A stretch of 39,942 bases of DNA from a virus, in the IMG/VR virus record IMGVR_UViG_3300038585_000195, positions 1-39,942 of that record. One strand, 5' to 3'. Made by a program: the position numbers and the translations under genes. Positions 5,975 through 39,925 of the stretch are shown piece by piece. The notes below the pieces were generated by a model. The model had not been told where the DNA came from and searched no databases. It was given only the letters and a program-made list of their open reading frames with translations. Positions within the stretch are counted from its first letter, which is position 1, and each line of letters starts with the position of its first letter.

Positions 5975-6339
5975 CAATAAAAATAAATGATGTAGAGTAC
6001 GTGAGAGCTGATTCAATTTCACAAGAAGCAGTCAAGAATAAGGATGGGCTGAGGTATTGTATCGTGAGAACTTATTCAGCTGGCGTGTTTGCTGGGTACT
6101 TAACAGACCGATCAGAAGATGGTCAGAGAGGTACTGTATTAGAAGCAAGAAGGCTTTGGTATTGGTCTGGTGCTTCTAGTTTAAGTGAGGCAAGTCAACA
6201 GGGTTTTGCTAATCCTGATGATTGCAAGTTCCCTCAAGAGGTTCCAGAGGTTGAATTAACTAATATTATCGAGGTAATCCCTTGTAGTGAAAAAGCTCGC
6301 CAATCAATTAAGGATGTGAAGATATGGTCACAACACTAA
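5965..6339 (+). CDS. DUF6948-like phage protein (124 aa)
   Basis: The protein contains RYCIVRTYSAGVFAGYL, RRLWYWSGASSLSEASQQG and a C-terminal IIEVIPCSEKARQSIKDVKI, the hallmarks of the DUF6948 group of small phage proteins, as I recall it. Function is unknown. The SD AAGGAAAAAAA is part of a duplicated start region (see 6600-6624). Its last 16 bases overlap a repeat ORF at 6324; the Gly-Ser-type partner downstream is, from memory, a common neighbour of this family. Confidence 0.75.
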   Translation: MVETIKINDVEYVRADSISQEAVKNKDGLRYCIVRTYSAGVFAGYLTDRSEDGQRGTVLEARRLWYWSGASSLSEASQQGFANPDDCKFPQEVPEVELTNIIEVIPCSEKARQSIKDVKIWSQH

Positions 6340-6575
6340 CTGGCTATGGCTCTGGCTCTGGCGATGGCTCTGGCGATGGCTATAGCTCTGGCTCTGGCTA
6401 TGGCTCTGGCGATGGCTCTGGCTCTGGCGATGGCTCTGGCGATGGCTCTGGCTATGGCTCTGGCTATGGCTCTGGCTATGGCTCTGGCGATGGCTCTGGC
6501 TATGGCTCTGGCTATGGCTCTGGCGATGGCTCTGGCGATGGCTCTGGCTCTGGCGATGGCTCTGGCTTTGGCTAG
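6324..6575 (+). CDS. Gly-Ser/Asp/Tyr hexamer-repeat protein (83 aa)
   Basis: After MVTTLTG the frame is almost purely alternating Gly with Ser, Asp or Tyr (units GSGD, GSGY, GYGS) to the stop at 6575. It begins inside the end of the DUF6948-like gene with AAGGATGTGAAG before ATG. Similar Gly-rich repeat proteins occur next to DUF6948-type genes in other phages as I recall. Because the DNA period is six, all three forward frames stay open, so coding is not proven by openness. A flexible, disordered or calcium-binding spacer is possible. Confidence 0.5.
   Translation: MVTTLTGYGSGSGDGSGDGYSSGSGYGSGDGSGSGDGSGDGSGYGSGYGSGYGSGDGSGYGSGYGSGDGSGDGSGSGDGSGFG
6342..6573 (+). repeat. GGCTCT/GGCGAT/GGCTAT hexamer repeat
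   Basis: About 38 hexamers of GGC followed by TCT, GAT or TAT, with TCT alternating in most units. This block is far more GC-rich and pure than its surroundings. It is expected to be length-variable through slippage or recombination. Confidence 0.95.
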
Positions 6576-28547: not shown

Positions 28548-28808
28548 CTATTCTTCGTCTTCATGAAATCCACCCAGCTCTGAATATAACTGTGTCATCT
28601 CACGTTTTAGATAGTATAAACGGGCCATCTCATTATCTGGCTTATTTATACTTACCTTCTTAAGTCTACATTGGTTCTTAATATGATTCAAGATGAAGCG
28701 CCATTCACTAGGGCATTTATTCTCAATACTCTCACGAGCTTGATCAAGCTGTAATAAGTATTTTTTTCGAGCTATCTTCTTCTCTTGGTCTGTTCTATTG
28801 TTCTGCAT
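28548..28808 (-). CDS. small helical protein between portal and scaffold (86 aa)
   Basis: Mainly helical and basic (TDQEKKIARKKYLLQLDQAR; KKVSINKPDNEMARLYYLKR). It overlaps the portal 3' end by 14 bases. Position between portal and scaffold suggests a head component or assembly factor. No family is recognised. Confidence 0.6.
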   Translation of the reverse strand: MQNNRTDQEKKIARKKYLLQLDQARESIENKCPSEWRFILNHIKNQCRLKKVSINKPDNEMARLYYLKREMTQLYSELGGFHEDEE

Positions 28809-31089
28809 TCTGTTGTTGCTGCTGCTGCATTGCCATTGATTGCATTGCTAGTTCTTCTTCTGTTCTATTAATCTCTTCTTCTGATTTTTTCACATTCTCA
28901 TATGAATGTCCAATAGCTGCCATGTATGGACGTAGAATCTTAGATAAATCTATCTCCCTTCTCTCTTTAGCATCAGGAGGTAATTTACTCAATAAATCAT
29001 AAAGCTCAAGGGCTGCTCTTCTAACCATTGCTTTATTTAAAGTTGTCTTAGAACCTAATACGATAACATCAGATTCGTTAATATCATCAGTAAGTAATAA
29101 GTAGTATAGATAATCAGATGGTGGGATTGGCTCAGCAATCTCTTCAACCATAAGCTCAAGTTTATCCATCTTATCAAGTAACTGCTCTTGCATTGCTGCT
29201 AAATCATCACGGTTCTTTTTCTGAACTTCATAAAACTCTTGGCGAGCTGTCTCAACCGATGATCTATCAAAAGTACCCTCATCAGGTTCTTGAAACTTCT
29301 GGAATGGTGCCTGTAATCTTTCTTGGATACTAGCGAGTTGTGCTCCTACTCTTTGGTATTGAGCTATATACTTATCATTCTTTTGCTTACGTTTAAGTTC
29401 ACCCTTGAAGTAATCCTCATATTTATCTTGGATACCAGTAGTAAGTAAGAGTCTTTGATATAAAGGATTATTATCAAGAACTATTTGATAAGCTTCTTCT
29501 TCACTAGTCTCATAGTCCATTAATGGATCTAATTGTCTAATCAACTTAACCCCTTCTTCTACTTGAGTTTTAAGTTGATGGATAGTTATAGCGAGTCTTC
29601 CACAAAGCATTGGCTTAATGAAACCCTCATCTATTAAACCAGCTGCATCATTGATTCTTAAACCACCAGAATCCATTTGTTCTTGTAGTTCAAACTTGGT
29701 TCTTCGAGAAGCTGGTCTACCACCTAGTTGTAGCTTAGTCATACCACTAGCTTCTTCAACCATATCGGTTGTAAACTTCAAGAAGTTTTGGACAGCAGCA
29801 ATTCTATTTTCATAACCAGGGATAGTCAGTGGAGTTATTTCCACATCCTCATACAACGCTCCGCCTTTAAATGGTTCAATTGGTGTATCCTCAAGATCAT
29901 TATCACCAGATCTAGCGTTTAATGGAGGGTCAGCATTACGATCAGTATCACGGGCCATTGCCGAAATTAATTGGTTTTGTATTTGTTGGAATACAAGGAA
30001 TGGGATTAATGGTCCTCTACCCGAAGGTTGTCCAGGTAGAGTCTCATCAAATGCGGCAAACAAATTTCTAAACTCTTTATAGGTTACATCTTTAACAGCC
30101 TTAACAACGAACACACTGTTATGACCATGCCTACTTAAAACATCAGGATCAGCATTACCTTTAATAAGAGGTTGATAAGCGATAGTTAACATCACCCCAG
30201 TCTCTACTAGATCCATTTCTTCACGAGTTTGACCCTCTACAAATAAACTAGGGATCCATACTTCATGGAAACGCATCTTGCCCCATGGAGCTTCATAATC
30301 TTCATACTGCTCAGATCTTTGAGTTGGAGTTACAAAAGGATCATTTTGAGTTTCATCATAAGAGGTCCAAGGTTTAAATTGTCTCAATAAAGTTTGATCA
30401 AGATCTTCTCTTCTAAGAGCATCAACATAATTTAAATCATATCTATAAATATTGACTGACTTATGCCACTCATCAGTAATTGGATAAATACCAAAATCTC
30501 TAAGGTGAGGTACTTTGAGATCAACGAAATTCTCAATTGCATCATAACAAAGAATACCTGGAGTTGCTCCATAAGCACAGGCCTGAGAAATACCTTTCCT
30601 AATCTTAGGTTTGATTTTGAAGTTCTCATTCTCTACATGAATATTTCTTTCCCAGCATTTATTTAAGACAGGGAGGAAACCTTGAAGTCCCAACTCAGTA
30701 GTTAGTTTACTTCTACGTCTATCAATACTAAACCAATCATCAGTATCAGGGATTACAGCCTCTTTCATATGAGTAACCCATCCCTTCCATACCTTGTAGA
30801 TTAGCGGAGTATAAAGACTTGAGAACTCATCAGTTTCATTAACGGTCTCTTCATCTATCTGGGCTCTTACAATATCAGAACCATCAGCAACATTAAATAT
30901 CTGGCTCTCCAAATCAACCTTATCAGTGGGAGCAGAATCAACAAATGTTTGCTTTAAAGCTAAATCAACCCTATGATAATCAGCATCTCTCTGTTCGTTT
31001 TCAAAGATCTCATAGATCATTTGATATGCCAAGTTGTTTACCTGGTCACGTTGGTAATCTGAAAGAGTTGATAAATCAAATATTTCCAT
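28795..31089 (-). CDS. portal protein (764 aa)
   Basis: Large protein in the right place, next to terminase, scaffold and capsid genes. The N-terminal region (RDQVNNLAYQMIYEIFENEQ), the middle blocks (SLYTPLIYKVWKGWVTHMKE; DTDDWFSIDRRRSKL) and a helical region (SGMTKLQLGGRPASRRTKFE) followed by a long Glu/Lys/Gln-rich C-terminal stem (about 560-764, with a Gln run QQQQQQNAEQ) all fit a long-crown portal such as those of P22-like phages. It forms the dodecameric DNA channel. Two decoration-like genes precede it. Confidence 0.75.
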   Translation of the reverse strand: MEIFDLSTLSDYQRDQVNNLAYQMIYEIFENEQRDADYHRVDLALKQTFVDSAPTDKVDLESQIFNVADGSDIVRAQIDEETVNETDEFSSLYTPLIYKVWKGWVTHMKEAVIPDTDDWFSIDRRRSKLTTELGLQGFLPVLNKCWERNIHVENENFKIKPKIRKGISQACAYGATPGILCYDAIENFVDLKVPHLRDFGIYPITDEWHKSVNIYRYDLNYVDALRREDLDQTLLRQFKPWTSYDETQNDPFVTPTQRSEQYEDYEAPWGKMRFHEVWIPSLFVEGQTREEMDLVETGVMLTIAYQPLIKGNADPDVLSRHGHNSVFVVKAVKDVTYKEFRNLFAAFDETLPGQPSGRGPLIPFLVFQQIQNQLISAMARDTDRNADPPLNARSGDNDLEDTPIEPFKGGALYEDVEITPLTIPGYENRIAAVQNFLKFTTDMVEEASGMTKLQLGGRPASRRTKFELQEQMDSGGLRINDAAGLIDEGFIKPMLCGRLAITIHQLKTQVEEGVKLIRQLDPLMDYETSEEEAYQIVLDNNPLYQRLLLTTGIQDKYEDYFKGELKRKQKNDKYIAQYQRVGAQLASIQERLQAPFQKFQEPDEGTFDRSSVETARQEFYEVQKKNRDDLAAMQEQLLDKMDKLELMVEEIAEPIPPSDYLYYLLLTDDINESDVIVLGSKTTLNKAMVRRAALELYDLLSKLPPDAKERREIDLSKILRPYMAAIGHSYENVKKSEEEINRTEEELAMQSMAMQQQQQQNAEQ

Positions 31090-31481
31090 TAGCTTTTTGT
31101 ATCTTTCAACATGAGTAAGGTTACTTTCTGAGTGAAAGCCGCAGCTCCCGTCCCAGCTATTACAACCTTAGCTCTAACATATCTATTGAGTGTGTTCTGA
31201 GCGTTGTTATAAGTTTGCTGAATTAATGACGATGATGTTGAATTACCTAAGACTTGAGTGAAAGAATGGAGAGTGGTAATTCTATAGGCATCAGCAAAAT
31301 CACTTTGATCAGATTGCTCAATAGAGACATCCAATGTTTGACCTGCACTTCCTGATAAAGTATCAATCAACAGTTGGAAGGTAACACTACGACTATCTTT
31401 AGTATTAAAAGATTGAGTCATAGTAGTACCATCCGTTGAATAAGTTGGCTTATCCAGTAGTGCTGTTGATGAATCAGCCAT
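31089..31481 (-). CDS. beta-rich head protein (130 aa)
   Basis: The sequence TMTQSFNTKDSRSVTFQLLID then GQTLDVSIEQSDQSDF and TQKVTLLMLKDTKS has alternating hydrophobic beta strands. The coupling to portal is by 1 base. It could be a decoration or fibre-like protein on the head. Not certain. Confidence 0.6.
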   Translation of the reverse strand: MADSSTALLDKPTYSTDGTTMTQSFNTKDSRSVTFQLLIDTLSGSAGQTLDVSIEQSDQSDFADAYRITTLHSFTQVLGNSTSSSLIQQTYNNAQNTLNRYVRAKVVIAGTGAAAFTQKVTLLMLKDTKS

Positions 31482-32057
31482 TTAATTTTTCTCCGAAACA
31501 ACTTGAAGGAATAACTCTAAACTACCAGCAGTTAATGCTTCAACTGCAACTGTAGCCACTGGCGCACGTGCTGCTGTTGTTTTTTCAGAAGCATTAGCCG
31601 TTGTACCAGTTTGGATAGTTTCGTGAATTCCAGCATCCCAAACATTACCACCAGCAGAGATTGCAGTAGCTGCTACAATACCAGCTGCATCATCAGTTGG
31701 GATTCCAATTGCGATTGTCGCTGCATCTGTTGATGAAGTAAATGTAGTTGTTACCTCATAGAAACCTCTAAGAACTCTTGAGTTATCTGGGATTTGTGGT
31801 CCTCTTAGTGTAATATCACCGATTGCACCACCATCAGTATCGAAATCTAATTCATATCTAGTGAATGCACCAAGTGCTTGAACTACACCATTTTGAACGA
31901 TATACGTTTCTTTTGTAGTATCGTTCATAGCGATAAACGCTTGATCTTGCTTAGCTAGTGAATCTAGAACGATTTCACCAGTAGCACCAATATCTGCCGG
32001 ATCGGTAAAGCTAACTAGCTTCCCATTATTCGGCGTATCTAATAAACTTACAGTCAT
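31482..32057 (-). CDS. beta-rich decoration/head-fibre-like protein (191 aa)
   Basis: The motif IPDNSRVLRGFYEVTTTFTS with DAATIAIGIPTDDAAGIVAA is a recurring phage pattern (as I recall) in decoration or capsid-fibre proteins, followed by a C-terminal VATVAVEALTAGSLELF strand. SD AGGAGA. It is the first gene of the virion transcript after the TerL terminator. No function has been shown for this pattern. Confidence 0.6.
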   Translation of the reverse strand: MTVSLLDTPNNGKLVSFTDPADIGATGEIVLDSLAKQDQAFIAMNDTTKETYIVQNGVVQALGAFTRYELDFDTDGGAIGDITLRGPQIPDNSRVLRGFYEVTTTFTSSTDAATIAIGIPTDDAAGIVAATAISAGGNVWDAGIHETIQTGTTANASEKTTAARAPVATVAVEALTAGSLELFLQVVSEKN

Positions 32058-32105: not shown

Positions 32106-33803
32106 TTAGACCCTAAAAGACCTTCTCATCGGCTTAGGTCTTTTCTTTTTAGCTTTACGAGCTTCCATGTCTTCATCACGTTGTTTTCTAGACTTCCATC
32201 TCCATTGAACAACCCACCTAACTGTATCCATAAAGTGATCATGGAAACCATCTTTCTCAACTTCAATAAGCTGACCCTTGTAACCCCTATTGCGCATATG
32301 CTTCATATCCTTAAGGGTATAGCCATACATAAAGGCTTTAGGTATTACTCCGTACTCTTCTTTGCCAACTTCATTAATAAAACGACCAGCCGACGGGTTA
32401 ACAATCAATTGATGAGATTGTCCGATCTTATTAGCACATAAATCATTAAGAGCATAAATCCCTTCGATAGGCTTACATGTCTTATTACGATTAGTAACTC
32501 TCTTCTTAAATTCCTTCTCTACCTCTAAACCACCAGGATCAGCATTACCATCGCGAGCACCCTTGAAGCCTGATGGATCACAGAAGATCTTATAATCATC
32601 TCTCCACCCATCAAAATGTTCATCAAGAAAATTAAGGGTTCTTATTATGAATGCTGATAATCTCTCACGATAAACCATTAATCCATCATGAATTACAAAT
32701 CTATTAAACGTATCCGGCTGACTAAATGTTACAGCTGGGAAGTTACTACCAAAGTCAAACGATATATACAAAGGCTGAGTATTATCATATCCATTTGGAT
32801 ATAATTCATGGTAGGGCTGACAATGTAGGGTTTCATCGTATTCCCAGATAGCTCTATCACCTTTAGGGAAATTAAACTCACCCTCGTATTCTTGGAGCCA
32901 AGTAAAGGTATCAACACCGGATTCACCTGGGATCGGGACTCCATCCGGGGTAGTCCCATATCTTTCTTTGTAATACCATTCAATAGTTCTCTTGTAGGGA
33001 TGAGCTTTATAGTGGCATTTAATTACTAGATGGTTGAACTCATTATCAGTTATACTTAGTCCTTGCATCAACTCTTTAAACTGAGATCCTTCTTTGATCT
33101 TCGTTAATTCCTCGAACTTAGTCCCCGGAAGTGGAGAAGAGATTATTGCGGCCCTACAATCCTTACCTTCAAGTGCAGGCTTTAATGCAGCAAGGTTTTC
33201 TTCACAGTGAGTTTGGAAAGCAAACTCGTCATAGATAGCGTTAGTGATAGTATCACCACGACACTTATCAGCGCCGGAGGGAATACTAGATAGTTCAGAA
33301 CCAGTATCGGGATTTATGGCAGATTGAGATAAAAGATGAGCTCCTTCCTTCAAGTTTGGATAGAAACCAAATCTCATATCAAGATTTTGTAGTGTGTGCC
33401 GTGCTCTTCTTCTAAAAGCTTTTTTTGCTTTAGCTTCGGAGATTGAAACAAATATATTGTCAGACTTATCTTTAAATAGGAACTGATGTGGTAAAACTCC
33501 GGAAAAGAAAGTATGAGTTTGAAGCTGTCTTCTAGTTTTTGGAATTATAATTATTTTGTTTTGAAAATATAATTGAACAATCAACCTTAGGTATTGGAAT
33601 GGCGGGAATGGTTTGACAGTGCCGTCAGATTCATCCATTGTGTAGACCTGCTCTGTCATCCACAACCAAGGATCATGCTTCCATTGCAGAAACTTAAACA
33701 TTGAGAATGGGACCTCTTCATCGTTAAGCTCTGGTACTCTTACCTTAGTTGAGAAAACTTCATCGGGAAATCTTTCTTGATGTGATTTTATAATCTTTGA
33801 CAT
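32106..33803 (-). CDS. terL: terminase large subunit (565 aa)
   Basis: Start at 33803 (MSKIIKSHQERFP) with SD AAGGACAA; an upstream ATG at 33935 would run through the divergent small-subunit gene. The ATPase half shows a Walker A-like IIIIPKTRRQLQTH (about 87-97), NAIYDEFAF with Asp193-Glu194 as Walker B and catalytic Glu, and the coupling motif AAIISSP. The nuclease half has ISFDFGSN (Asp350), CDPSGFK and DHFMDTVRW (Asp526). It packages DNA into the prohead. The C-terminus is basic. Transcribed divergently from its small-subunit partner. Confidence 0.9.
   Translation of the reverse strand: MSKIIKSHQERFPDEVFSTKVRVPELNDEEVPFSMFKFLQWKHDPWLWMTEQVYTMDESDGTVKPFPPFQYLRLIVQLYFQNKIIIIPKTRRQLQTHTFFSGVLPHQFLFKDKSDNIFVSISEAKAKKAFRRRARHTLQNLDMRFGFYPNLKEGAHLLSQSAINPDTGSELSSIPSGADKCRGDTITNAIYDEFAFQTHCEENLAALKPALEGKDCRAAIISSPLPGTKFEELTKIKEGSQFKELMQGLSITDNEFNHLVIKCHYKAHPYKRTIEWYYKERYGTTPDGVPIPGESGVDTFTWLQEYEGEFNFPKGDRAIWEYDETLHCQPYHELYPNGYDNTQPLYISFDFGSNFPAVTFSQPDTFNRFVIHDGLMVYRERLSAFIIRTLNFLDEHFDGWRDDYKIFCDPSGFKGARDGNADPGGLEVEKEFKKRVTNRNKTCKPIEGIYALNDLCANKIGQSHQLIVNPSAGRFINEVGKEEYGVIPKAFMYGYTLKDMKHMRNRGYKGQLIEVEKDGFHDHFMDTVRWVVQWRWKSRKQRDEDMEARKAKKKRPKPMRRSFRV
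32115..32144. terminator. bidirectional terminator at the end of the TerL gene
   Basis: AAAAGACCT (32115-32123) pairs perfectly with AGGTCTTTT (32136-32144) over a 12-base loop. A-tract paired with T-tract works in both directions. It is within the last codons of the TerL gene, so the structural genes to its left need their own promoter (32058-32110 is AT-rich but no clear box is seen). Confidence 0.7.
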
Positions 33804-33827
33804 AAATTGTCCTTCTTTTAGTATACT
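33797..33827 (+). promoter_or_regulatory. promoter for the terminase small subunit and downstream genes
   Basis: Perfect TTGACA (33797-33802) and TATACT (33822-33827, 19 bases) or TAGTAT (33819-33824, 16 bases). The -35 overlaps the reverse-complement start codon of TerL, so the two genes are divergent from one 31-bp gap. The palindrome AGTATACT (33820-33827) also gives a -10-like sequence for the opposite direction. Confidence 0.65.
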
Positions 33828-33834
33828 GTAACTA

Positions 33835-34374
33835 GTGAATAAAAAACAGGCTAGGAGTGATGCTAAATTTCTTTTTGAAAAAAAAGGTTTAACTAAAGCT
33901 GATATTGCCCGTAAGTTAAGTGTAACCCCTAACACTGTTAGTAAGTGGGCTAAAGAGGATAGTTGGGATCCTCAGCCTTTACCACCAGAGAAATTAACTC
34001 CAGCGACAGAGCTATCAAAGATTGGCAAGCAAGATAAGCAAACAATTCTTCAACAAGTTGATCCATTATTAGAACTTAGCTTTGATAACTTATTTAGTAA
34101 ATTAGAAGAAGAGAGTAGTACTAGGCAGTATAGTGGAATTAGGGATTATACATCTCTAGTTACTAAGCTAATGGAAATCAAAGGTAAGATCACAGGTGAG
34201 ACTACTAATACTGAATTAGATGAGGATAGTATTAGAGCGAAGACCATGACAGAGTTTAAAGAGATGTTGGATACATTGTCTGACACTGGTAAGATCACTG
34301 GCAATTTAAAGCAAGTGAGTGGCAAGAGTGATGTTATTGATTTGGAGGAGTTCCAGGTTAAAGAAATAGAATAG
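33835..34374 (+). CDS. terS: terminase small subunit (179 aa)
   Basis: GTG start without SD. Residues 1-36 are helical and include KADIARKLSVTPNTVSKWAK (about 21-40), a helix-turn-helix as in many small terminase subunits, followed by a coiled-coil-like centre and an acidic tail. It should bind the packaging site and control TerL. It lies beside terL but on the opposite strand. A transcription regulator is an alternative reading, but position favours TerS. Confidence 0.75.
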   Translation: MNKKQARSDAKFLFEKKGLTKADIARKLSVTPNTVSKWAKEDSWDPQPLPPEKLTPATELSKIGKQDKQTILQQVDPLLELSFDNLFSKLEEESSTRQYSGIRDYTSLVTKLMEIKGKITGETTNTELDEDSIRAKTMTEFKEMLDTLSDTGKITGNLKQVSGKSDVIDLEEFQVKEIE

Positions 34375-36503: not shown

Positions 36504-37838
36504 TTAAAATCCAACATCATCCTCAGTCCTTCTTATGGGCTTAGGCTTTGGTTTAGTCAAATAATTATTACTAGCCTCATAAACCATTTGCCGTTTTTCA
36601 TTAAAGAGAAGATTAAGTTCGAACTTTTTAATCTTAGGAGCTTGCCTAAATTTTTCAATAGTCAAAGTTGATTCTGGGCTTTGTAAGTCTTCCTTGTAGA
36701 GAAAAAGGATTAGGTCAGAATCAGTCTCAATATTACTAGTCCCTTTGAGCCAAAACTTTTGTGGTTTACCTCCTGATTTCACCCCCTCTCTATTAAATTG
36801 AGATAAAAGTATTACTGGTGTTCTATTAGTACGAGCAATATTTTTAAGGGTACTGGTGATTTCATCTAATCCTTCTTTTGGGGTTTGGTTTTTCCTATGG
36901 GTAAGTAAGTGTAGGTGATCAACGAACACAACGTCCACCCCAGTAGTTGTTTGTAGTTTTTGGTAAACAAGTTTTATAGAATCAATAGTAGAACTACCGT
37001 AGTCTATCCAAATGGGTAATTTTTTAAACCTTTCCCCAAGCTCTTCATATTCTTTTCTTAGGGTAGGATCTTTAAGCTCCCCATCTAGATCATCATAATT
37101 AATCTTATGTTGAGGATCTGCAAGCATTGGTAGTAGTTTCGGTACTAATTCTTCGGGTCCCATTTCAAGGGAGAAGTATAAGCATTTAAGTCCTTGTTGG
37201 GCGAGGTTATGTAGCATTTGAAGTGCAAAGGTAGTTTTCCCTGTCCCTGAATTAGCGGCGAGTGTAACAAGTGATATCTTACGAATCCCTTTAGTAGCTT
37301 CATCGAAACTAGGTAATCCTATGGGATATCCAGCAAGTCCTGTTGAACTTCGGGCATCAAGTTCAGTTTCATACATATTAACGGCCTGTGAAGCGTCAAC
37401 TAATGTTGAGGGCCTTGGGGTAACAGTAGAGAATTCTCCAATATATTTGCCAGCAATAGCCTCAAGATCAGATTCATCTTCTTCTATGGACTGGTATAAC
37501 TCAAGCCCCATATTGGCTAATTTTCTTTTAGCGGCCAATTCCTTAATTTCCTTAGCTGCTGGAGCGACGGAGTTAGGGAGGCAAGCTTTGTCGGTAATGG
37601 AGCTTAAATACGAAATAGCTGCAGTTGCATTAGCTTTTCTAAGTTGTTTATTGATATTAACAAACTCGATTTCAAGCCCTTGTTTGGCGATATCAACCAT
37701 TGCCTGAAATATCTGCTGATGCTGGAGTGTGTAAAAATCTTCAGCCTTTAGACCAATATCACTAACTAGAAAATATGCATCAGGGTAGTGCATAAGGGCC
37801 CCTAAGAAAGGGACCTCGGTTCCAATCGGATCTTTCAT
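36504..37838 (-). CDS. dnaB: replicative DNA helicase, DnaB type (444 aa)
   Basis: N-terminal DnaB-like helical domain (about 1-100, with FLGALMHYPDAY and DFYTLQHQQIFQAM), linker, then a RecA-like domain: Walker A ANSGTGKTTFALQ (about 196-208), YFSLEMG (about 222-228), Walker B region VVFVDHLHLL (about 304-313, His where others have Gln), LSQFNREG (about 347-354) and TSNIETDSDLILFLYK near the C-terminus. This is a hexameric helicase that unwinds DNA at replication forks. No primase domain is attached. It overlaps the RHH gene by one base and is probably controlled by it. Confidence 0.9.
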   Translation of the reverse strand: MKDPIGTEVPFLGALMHYPDAYFLVSDIGLKAEDFYTLQHQQIFQAMVDIAKQGLEIEFVNINKQLRKANATAAISYLSSITDKACLPNSVAPAAKEIKELAAKRKLANMGLELYQSIEEDESDLEAIAGKYIGEFSTVTPRPSTLVDASQAVNMYETELDARSSTGLAGYPIGLPSFDEATKGIRKISLVTLAANSGTGKTTFALQMLHNLAQQGLKCLYFSLEMGPEELVPKLLPMLADPQHKINYDDLDGELKDPTLRKEYEELGERFKKLPIWIDYGSSTIDSIKLVYQKLQTTTGVDVVFVDHLHLLTHRKNQTPKEGLDEITSTLKNIARTNRTPVILLSQFNREGVKSGGKPQKFWLKGTSNIETDSDLILFLYKEDLQSPESTLTIEKFRQAPKIKKFELNLLFNEKRQMVYEASNNYLTKPKPKPIRRTEDDVGF

Positions 37839-38068: not shown

Positions 38069-38281
38069 TTATAAAATAGTCCAGCCTTTTTTATGTATAT
38101 TGGAGTAGGTAATGAGTTGTAGTTTTCTAAGGGTTTGCAGTGCATTTGCGATGGTATAGTGTGAGTAGAAGGCTCTATTTTTAATATCGGTGAGTGTGAG
38201 TGGTTTTTTATTTCTAGCCAATATTTTATAGACTTTAGTTTGTGCGGGGTTAAGGTTTGCGAGTATTTGTTCTTTATTCAT
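38069..38281 (-). CDS. winged-helix protein, paralogue of the protein at 38636 (70 aa)
   Basis: I chose ATG 38281 (MNKEQILANLNPAQTKVYK) instead of the in-frame ATG at 38350 because the match with the paralogue starts there and the longer start lies in the neighbouring gene. The sequence IKNRAFYSHYTIANALQTLR then KLQLITYSNI is a winged-helix with recognition helix YTIANALQTL. No SD is visible. Likely a transcription regulator together with its paralogue and the alpha-CTD-like protein. Confidence 0.7.
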   Translation of the reverse strand: MNKEQILANLNPAQTKVYKILARNKKPLTLTDIKNRAFYSHYTIANALQTLRKLQLITYSNIHKKGWTIL

Positions 38282-38297
38282 AGTAGTTAAATAATTA

Positions 38298-38639
38298 TTA
38301 CGATAAATAACTAAGTGCTTCCAGGATATCATCTGCGGAGATTGGCCCAATGTGTTTTATTTTCATCAATTGTTTTTTATTCCGTGGTATTTGTTGTATT
38401 GTGTAGATTTTAGCTCTCATGAGGGCATTTATGGTGGGGGTGGAAAGTGGTAGATTCATGATTGAATTTACTCGTTCAGTTCTTAGTGATGCACTAAACA
38501 GGTATTGCATGTGTTGGATATAGGATTCTTCGTCGATATCGAAGAGTTTGAGGGTAATTTTCCTATGTTGTTCAAGCAGGCTTTTCTCATAGTTTTGACT
38601 TGGCTGGAAGTCTTTTAGTGCAACGATTTTATTATTCAT
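38298..38639 (-). CDS. RNA polymerase alpha-CTD-like protein (113 aa)
   Basis: The last 50 residues (63-113) read LPLSTPTINALMRAKIYTIQ, a linker, LMKIKHIGPISADDILEAL. They align with the alpha-subunit C-terminal domain of bacterial RNA polymerase ([20 protein letters not shown] ... LLKTPNLGKKSLTEIKDVL). Residues that bind DNA in E. coli are only partly kept: R265 becomes Pro68, N268 is Asn71, C269 becomes Ala72, G296 is Gly98, K298 becomes Ile100, S299 is Ser101, E302 becomes Asp104. The N-terminal 60 residues are novel and charged. It may bind host polymerase or activators; a generic helix-hairpin-helix is the alternative. SD GAGGAA; flanked by two winged-helix genes. Confidence 0.7.
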   Translation of the reverse strand: MNNKIVALKDFQPSQNYEKSLLEQHRKITLKLFDIDEESYIQHMQYLFSASLRTERVNSIMNLPLSTPTINALMRAKIYTIQQIPRNKKQLMKIKHIGPISADDILEALSYLS

Positions 38640-39019
38640 AGCAATTTCCTCATATATTGAAAGTTAGATTGTGTACAGCCATGGAGTCCATGTTGTCTTA
38701 TAATCTCATCATATTGAGCTTCAGCCTTATCCCAAGCGGAGAGGATATGGTGATCATAGTGATCTTTAAGGAGTTTGGTTATTATCAGCCAGCATTTTTT
38801 AATTGAAGAGTAGGCTATGAGTCCAAGTTTTCTAAGGACTTGAAGCGCATCAGCGGTAGTGGAGAGTGCATAAAAGGTTTGTTTTTTAATACTAGCGAGT
38901 GTAGGAGGTTCTTGATCAGCCTTGCGTTTATTGAGATTTTCCAATAAAAGTTTATAAATTACCCTTTGTGCCGGGTTTAATTGATGTAATATTCGTGGGT
39001 TTGTGTTATACTTTTTCAT
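38636..39019 (-). CDS. winged-helix protein with extra C-terminal domain (127 aa)
   Basis: LHQLNPAQRVIYKLLLENL and IKKQTFYALSTTADALQVLR then KLGLIAYSSI match the 70-aa protein at 38069, so the two are paralogues. The added C-terminal half (about 75-127) is helical with His/Tyr/Asp residues and no clear motif. Its stop overlaps the alpha-CTD-like gene start (ATGA). No SD is present; a GATTAT box stands five bases before ATG. Likely the first gene of a regulatory operon. Confidence 0.7.
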   Translation of the reverse strand: MKKYNTNPRILHQLNPAQRVIYKLLLENLNKRKADQEPPTLASIKKQTFYALSTTADALQVLRKLGLIAYSSIKKCWLIITKLLKDHYDHHILSAWDKAEAQYDEIIRQHGLHGCTQSNFQYMRKLL

Positions 39020-39038
39020 AGTATATAATCATCATTAA

Positions 39039-39058
39039 TTAGGTTAACAGAAACCTAA
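39039..39058. repeat. 7-bp inverted repeat ahead of the plus-strand terminator
   Basis: TTAGGTT (39039-39045) and AACCTAA (39052-39058) around AACAGA. Placed five bases before the terminator stem at 39063. Confidence 0.6.
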
Positions 39059-39062
39059 CAAG

Positions 39063-39097
39063 AAGTCCAGAGTAATAACTGGACTTTTTGTTTTTTT
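39063..39097 (+). terminator. Rho-independent terminator (plus strand)
   Basis: AAGTCCAG (39063-39070), loop AGTAATAA, CTGGACTT (39079-39086), then TTT-G-TTTTTTT to 39097. It is a near-perfect terminator reading rightward, although no plus-strand gene lies upstream of it within 2.9 kb. Confidence 0.8.
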
Positions 39098-39195
39098 GGC
39101 AAATAAATTACCCGCAGAAGGTAGGTAATAAACCCATAACCCTCTCGCTCACCGGGATACAGAGAATTACTATTAAGCTTACTGTCTATACATGG

Positions 39196-39225
39196 TTGAC
39201 AATCAATCCCCATATAACTTATTCT
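39196..39225 (+). promoter_or_regulatory. promoter candidate entering the non-coding region
   Basis: Perfect TTGACA (39196-39201) followed 18 bases later by TATTCT (39220-39225). Transcription would go rightward through the hairpin region. The -10 is only 4/6. Confidence 0.45.
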
Positions 39226-39282
39226 AATAATTATCAAGTAGAAGTGTATCTTCTAGTAATTAAATCAATAATTATTTTTTTT
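39226..39282. repeat. nested AT-rich inverted repeat followed by a T-run
   Basis: AATAATTAT (39226-39234) pairs with ATAATTATT (39268-39276). Inside it TAGAAG (39239-39244) pairs with CTTCTA (39250-39255) around TGTAT. T8 runs to 39282. It could be a cruciform, origin element or terminator. Confidence 0.6.
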
Positions 39283-39361
39283 AATAATAGGTAGGTTCAT
39301 TACAAAGGTCGTGAAAGTCACTTCGTTCCTAACCCTCCCAATGTAATTCACAGGAGTTTAG

Positions 39362-39436
39362 ATGAAAAGCTTCATTCCATTACGCTTTTCTGGGGGTGAT
39401 AAACCAATACACCAGCTCCTACCTCTCGCATTATAA
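39362..39436 (+). CDS. 24-codon ORF, possible leader peptide
   Basis: AGGAG (39352-39356) stands five bases before ATG. The frame reads MKSFIPLRFSGGDKPIHQLL then PLAL and a TAA at 39434-39436. It overlaps hairpin GAAAAGC/GCTTTTC (39364-39390). It could be a control peptide in the structured leader or a chance frame. Confidence 0.35.
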   Translation: MKSFIPLRFSGGDKPIHQLLPLAL

Positions 39437-39639
39437 TAATCAATAGATAATTGATAGGTAGTACGCTACCGCGAATTTTAAACCAATGCATACAGCGATA
39501 ACCGATCGCATGTACCTTAATAAGTACTGAAACTGTTAATAACTTTCTTATAGAAAAAGAGAAAGGGATGAAACGTGAGCATCTCATAGGGAGATGCGAA
39601 AGCGGAAAGCACCTTTAGGTGCGGGCGGTAAACCTACCC
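39364..39639 (+). ncRNA. candidate structured RNA (hairpin array)
   Basis: Perfect stems in series: GAAAAGC/GCTTTTC (39364-39390), ATCAAT/ATTGAT (39439-39455), GGTAG/CTACC (39457-39470), TACAGCGAT/ATCGC-A-TGTA (about 39491-39513), GCATCTC/GAGATGC (about 39579-39597) and GCACC/GGTGC (about 39609-39622). The density is far above the coding surroundings. I do not recognise a known riboswitch, ribozyme or intron. Strand is inferred from the promoter candidate at 39196. Confidence 0.4.
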
Positions 39640-39925
39640 TTAACCCCGCAATAATCCCGGGAAGGCAAAGGCTGATCTCTCATCTCGAATTACTTCCCCG
39701 GTATTATCATCTATTAGAGAATAGGTTTTATTATCCTCATTTGCATGCCAACTTCTCTTTAACCTTGGTAATTTATACCTTGATTCGCTTGAATGAGTGG
39801 GATGAAATGGAGTCTTAAACTCATCAGTAAAATGTAAACCATCCTCCAACATAGAAGTCTTACCCTTACCATTACCATACTTCTTAAAATAACCGCGCAT
39901 ATCATACGGGGAATCAAAACCACCC
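39640..39925 (-). CDS. C-terminal fragment of a phage YDMRGY-type protein, cut by the right end
   Basis: The frame is open through the primer to the window end; an internal Met lies at 39900. It contains GGFDSPYDMRGYFKKYGNG, GLHFTDEFKTPFHPTHSSES and a Trp-containing middle, resembling a phage protein with YDMRGY and FKxPxHPTxSxES motifs that I recall in head or tail regions. At least about 95 residues are present. Its 5' end is outside the window. The frames at 39594-39818 on plus are shadows. Confidence 0.65.

Follow-up and report, generated by a model that had tools for sequence, protein, structure and literature searches.

The window analysed here is the whole virus record IMGVR_UViG_3300038585_000195, 39,942 bases in length, and its longest gene-free stretch probably encodes a folded non-coding RNA. 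We propose a structured phage RNA on the + strand, running from about 39232 to 39640, with a promoter-like start and a closing helix. We give this reading a probability of about 0.5, and in it we infer that the region is transcribed, from which strand and between which ends, and that it acts as RNA and not as DNA. The RNA would be about 350-410 nt long, measured from the promoter-like site to 39640. The structured-RNA reading is backed by an excess of hairpins, by folding that is better than that of shuffled sequence and by the lack of a credible gene in the region. An initial annotation of this DNA had named a non-coding RNA, an origin or a packaging site as candidates; hairpins, fold scores and strand composition best support the first of these, while the case for an origin is weak.

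Results

The same 17-base sequence, GTTTCCCAGTCACGATC, stands at both ends of the contig (1-17 and 39926-39942) in inverted orientation. We take it to be the tag primer of a random-primed amplification, left untrimmed at both ends as a library artefact; the sequence appears in print in virome papers. Thus, the record is no complete genome but a fragment with a library artefact at either end. Judged from its sequence, the encoded phage is tailed and lies far from known phages. The DnaB-like helicase shares less than 30% identity with known phage helicases and at most 30% with its best IMG/VR relatives, and two large structural-block proteins, that of 28795-31089, which is head-tail-adaptor-like, and that of 32106-33935, gave no tblastn match in 50,697 phage records.

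The gap at 39020-39639 is the longest in the window at 620 nt, and the next longest measure 379, 374 and 362 nt. It lies between a - strand ORF at 38636-39019 on the left and a - strand ORF with its stop at 39640 on the right. The description of 39100-39640 as the sole long gene-free stretch therefore holds, with slightly wider limits. Features of the gap and its surroundings are collected in Table 1.

Table 1. Features in and around the gene-free stretch.
Feature	Position	Strand	Basis
DnaB-like replicative helicase	36504-37838	-	Sequence match
First gene of left operon, probable winged-helix protein	38636-39019	-	Paralogue of 38069-38350
Gene-free stretch, containing all elements	39020-39639		Longest inter-ORF gap; right border is a real gene
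TATAAT, possible -10 of a short RNA	39024-39029	+	Read from sequence; poor -35
Adjacent hairpin pair, of which the second has a 14-bp terminator-like stem (39057-39092) with T's after it	39038-39098	+	Fold; list of terminator-like sites
Perfect hairpin, 6 bp, upstream of the proposed RNA	39107-39129		Hairpin count
Promoter-like TTGACA-18-TATTCT (10/12), putative	39196-39225	+	Chance frequency
Proposed structured RNA, predicted ends	39232-39640	+	Hairpin excess, fold z, strand composition
Perfect hairpin, 6 bp	39239-39255		Hairpin count
Closing helix, 5' arm, 8 bp, GGTAGGTT	39290-39297	+	Inverted-match search; present in predicted fold
24-codon ORF, AGGAG 5 nt upstream	39362-39436	+	AGGAG-N5-ATG pattern at chance frequency
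Perfect hairpin, 7 bp, loop 13	39364-39390		Hairpin count
Perfect AT-rich hairpin, 6 bp	39439-39455		List of 6-bp hairpins
Perfect hairpin, 5 bp, loop UACG on +	39457-39470		Hairpin count
Perfect hairpin, 5 bp	39495-39509		Hairpin count
Perfect hairpin, 6 bp	39543-39565		Hairpin count
Perfect hairpin, 7 bp	39579-39597		Hairpin count
Perfect hairpin, 5 bp	39609-39622		Hairpin count
Closing helix, 3' arm, 8 bp, AACCTACC	39631-39638	+	Inverted-match search
Convergent virion-like gene, truncated by contig end	39640-39942	-	Last 17 bases are primer

The ORF that stops at 39640 is a real gene, since distant homologues of its virion-like product, sharing a YDMRG..HPTxSxES motif, occur at 13 IMG/VR loci; in most of these loci another gene directly follows it. 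On the left, the proteins of 38636-39019 and 38069-38350 are paralogues, 49-53% identical over their shared part (49% over 73 aa). The latter has a weak match to MarR_2, under the curated cut-off, and by sequence both are probably winged-helix proteins. These two putative regulators flank a - strand gene (38298-38639) whose small product carries an alpha-CTD domain of RNA polymerase (PF03118, E 4e-8, over the curated cut-off). Carried by a phage, such an alpha-CTD mimic could redirect transcription in the host.

Coding in the gap was excluded solely by inspection of ORFs. Those at 39372-39587 (-) and 39088-39294 (+) were rejected because no Shine-Dalgarno sequence was seen at proper spacing, and the ORF at 39594-39818 (+) shares this defect and also overlaps the better-supported virion-like gene. 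The 24-codon ORF listed in Table 1 could specify a small peptide and is probably a chance occurrence. Separately, ATAAATTACC has only three copies in the window, at 38954 (+), 39103 (+) and 39767 (-), all within 830 bp around the gap, and is possibly a binding site. We also considered whether TATAAATTACC, found at 38953 and inverted at 39767, forms the terminal repeats of a mobile element, and dismissed this, as the match is short and both arms lie inside genes.

A hairpin was counted when its stem was perfectly Watson-Crick paired over 5 bp or more, each arm contained two or more G/C, and the loop measured 3-13. Under this definition, which was chosen after the finding had been seen so that the exact probability of the excess should not be over-read, 39100-39640 holds eight hairpins against 2.14 expected, a count of eight or more being reached in 0/300 dinucleotide shuffles and 0/143 genome windows. 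The last 300 nt (39340-39640) hold six (shuffle mean, 1.18), with six or more in none of 300 shuffles and none of 258 genome windows, which bears out the earlier report of at least six perfect stem-loops in under 300 bases. By inspection the hairpin arms all differ from one another, and they are therefore not repeats of one protein site. An operator array was accordingly rejected, the palindromes having no common sequence.

Comparison of folding energy with shuffled sequence had been proposed as a check, and the + strand passes it at z of about -2.7 to -3.9: -2.88 for 39100-39660, -2.65 for 39285-39645 and -3.88 for the 3' domain at 39536-39642. Around 39232-39640 the + strand gives z of -2.5 to -3.7. 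More secondary structure than in shuffled sequence is a mark of structured phage non-coding RNA in the broad sense. However, values of z at or below -3.5 also occur in 11 of 726 genome windows of 110 nt (about 1.5%), so folding energy alone is not outstanding. The strongest + fold among the sampled 430-nt windows, at 6101-6530 (z -4.6), is explained by a coding repeat and is not an RNA gene; this repeat, GGCTCTGGCGATGGC, is rich in Gly/Ser/Asp and lies on the + strand at about 6324-6575. Around the 31481/31482 gene junction the - strand also folds strongly, with z of -3.8 at 31301-31730 (430 nt) and -5.9 at 31351-31460 (110 nt).

The predicted closing helix stops 2 nt short of the convergent stop codon. 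It is only suggestive, since the 1-kb stretch around the gap has three inverted matches that measure exactly 8 nt, besides several that are longer.

Longer folds favour the + strand over the - strand, and perfect stems are symmetric, so that energy hardly decides between the two. Base composition gives some help. The A-over-U excess in unpaired bases is 0.25 on the + strand, as in the sense strands of the phage's genes (0.25, sd 0.12), and -0.04 on the - strand, where antisense strands of genes give 0.04 (sd 0.13). Because shuffles retain the A excess, it bears on which strand is transcribed and not on structure.

The perfect TTGACA reported in the initial annotation is present at 39196 and belongs to the promoter-like site of Table 1. 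It is unremarkable, as TTGACA occurs 12 times in the window and promoter-like sites number three against 3.4 by chance. The nested AT-rich repeat likewise exists, as a palindrome with 21-nt arms at 39253-39290, but its arms are only 76% complementary in a segment (39231-39300) that is 80% AT, and it does not convince.

Outside the span first annotated, to its left, and separate from the main hairpin array lies the two-hairpin element at 39038-39098. Its surroundings (39030-39100) fold with z of -5.9, and its 14-bp stem is longer than that of any other terminator-like site in the list for the window. The element may end a short RNA begun at the TATAAT at 39024-39029, in which case it is possibly a separate small RNA. 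Alternatively, it may block transcription that runs on, in antisense, out of the + genes at 33.8-36.1 kb. From 36129 up to the element there is no + gene of the working set. A terminator-like stem here would insulate the + unit downstream.

Searches for relatives of the region gave nothing useful in IMG/VR scans (by helicase, virion-like and other proteins, by profiles and by an RNA motif pattern) or in GTDB genome scans, one of them by RNA motif pattern. BLAST returned short, weak matches only among phages and no match among plasmids. Similarly, a single-sequence covariance model found no relative in 94 sources plus seven virus records, and the loci of virion-like protein homologues contained no RNA match. 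Since exact patterns and a single-sequence model have little power, not much can be read from this absence of relatives. Searched at the gathering score and at E 10, Rfam gave sub-threshold matches only, the best four at E 10 stemming from the terminator-like stem at 39057-39098. The earlier remark that the region fits no known family is upheld in that it matches no Rfam family.

Discussion

We favour a non-coding RNA because of the hairpin excess, the fold scores, arms that differ from one another, unlike those of operators or iterons, and a strand composition like that of transcribed sequence. The + strand from about 39232 to 39640 would be transcribed from the TTGACA/TATTCT site, and the transcript would form a multi-branched domain in which the 8-bp helix encloses at least six hairpins; it would end beside the convergent virion-like gene's stop codon. 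In the infected cell the RNA may be stable and serve as a scaffold or a regulator, a role also supposed for large non-coding RNAs of other phages. Against this proposal, no + terminator is found at the 3' end of the proposed RNA, the flanking genes are on the - strand, and + transcription is not otherwise indicated.

The orientation of both flanking genes would suit a structured untranslated region on the - strand, which we regard as rather unlikely. It would lie between the regulator/DnaB operon and the virion-like gene, within a longer mRNA, and serve as a long leader, a processing region or a 3'-end protector. On that strand the hairpins come straight after the stop codon at 39640, and the only promoter-like site of the left operon sits right at the start codon. 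The - strand also folds better than shuffled sequence (z -2.2 for 39285-39645), and it gives the better fold of the 136 nt at 39510-39645 (z -3.8); the hairpin at 39514-39529 has an additional G-U pair on this strand only. However, the z score of the whole stretch is weaker on - than on +, the gap holds no - terminator, and the unpaired bases of the - strand are U-rich, as in antisense strands.

The inverted repeats could instead act as DNA, double-stranded or extruded, in a replication origin or a packaging (cos/pac) site, which we consider improbable. An origin at the gap is weakly supported by the nearby DnaB gene and the AT-rich stretch, and the DnaB operon also encodes the probable winged-helix proteins; as single-stranded DNA the region folds better than shuffled sequence (z -2.9). 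An iteron-type origin would call for a direct-repeat array, and the stretch around the gap contains neither such an array nor a repeated arm sequence, only scattered two-copy short repeats. The GC-skew check suggested in the initial annotation also spoke against an origin, with cumulative extremes near 7 kb and 33 kb and none at the gap, although gene orientation confounds this measure. Furthermore, the contig ends are primer and not true genome ends. Slightly less probable again is that no single element exists and that an ordinary intergenic gap or a decayed gene carries a cluster of palindromes by chance. This would fit a fold energy that other parts of the genome also reach, promoter-like sites no commoner than by chance, and the complete lack of conservation evidence. 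What argues against chance is that none of the 300 shuffles and no genome window reaches this hairpin density, and that 620 gene-free bases are unusual in so compact a genome.

The structured RNA that we prefer is thus an orphan, a single-sequence candidate of a known kind. Among known phage RNAs, c4-type antisense RNAs of P1, P7, N15 and P4 are short and regulatory (PMC7567579). The 39038-39098 element is likewise of small-RNA scale, whereas the main element is much longer, and the region has no Rfam match. In phage ICP1 the most abundant transcript is a non-coding RNA of about 800 nt in an ORF-less gap, gp139/gp140 (PMC7567579). It resembles our candidate in lying in an ORF-less phage gap away from tRNAs and in having no known role (PMC7567579). 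It differs in its length and in having been shown by RNA-seq, whereas ours is a candidate predicted from sequence.

The ROOL and GOLLD RNAs form RNA nanocages whose function is not known (PMC12286853). Like the RNA that we propose, they are long, have many hairpins, lie in phage genomes and are without known function (PMC12286853). In contrast, neither the Rfam covariance model of ROOL nor that of GOLLD, which covers its conserved 3' region, matches the region at the gathering score or at E 10. The proposed RNA is also shorter than GOLLD, many of whose members exceed 800 nt. Both families are often found near phage tRNA genes, a usual and not strictly defining trait, and ARAGORN found no tRNA in the window. 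It is a tentative possibility that the region stands for a new class of large phage RNA with many hairpins, which has no sequence relationship to ROOL, GOLLD or any Rfam family and is transcribed convergently to a virion-like gene in a deeply divergent phage. Large structured phage RNAs such as ROOL, GOLLD and the ICP1 transcript are without known function. If the proposal is true, an unrelated example in so divergent a phage would widen the set and suggest that large structured phage RNAs arise repeatedly.
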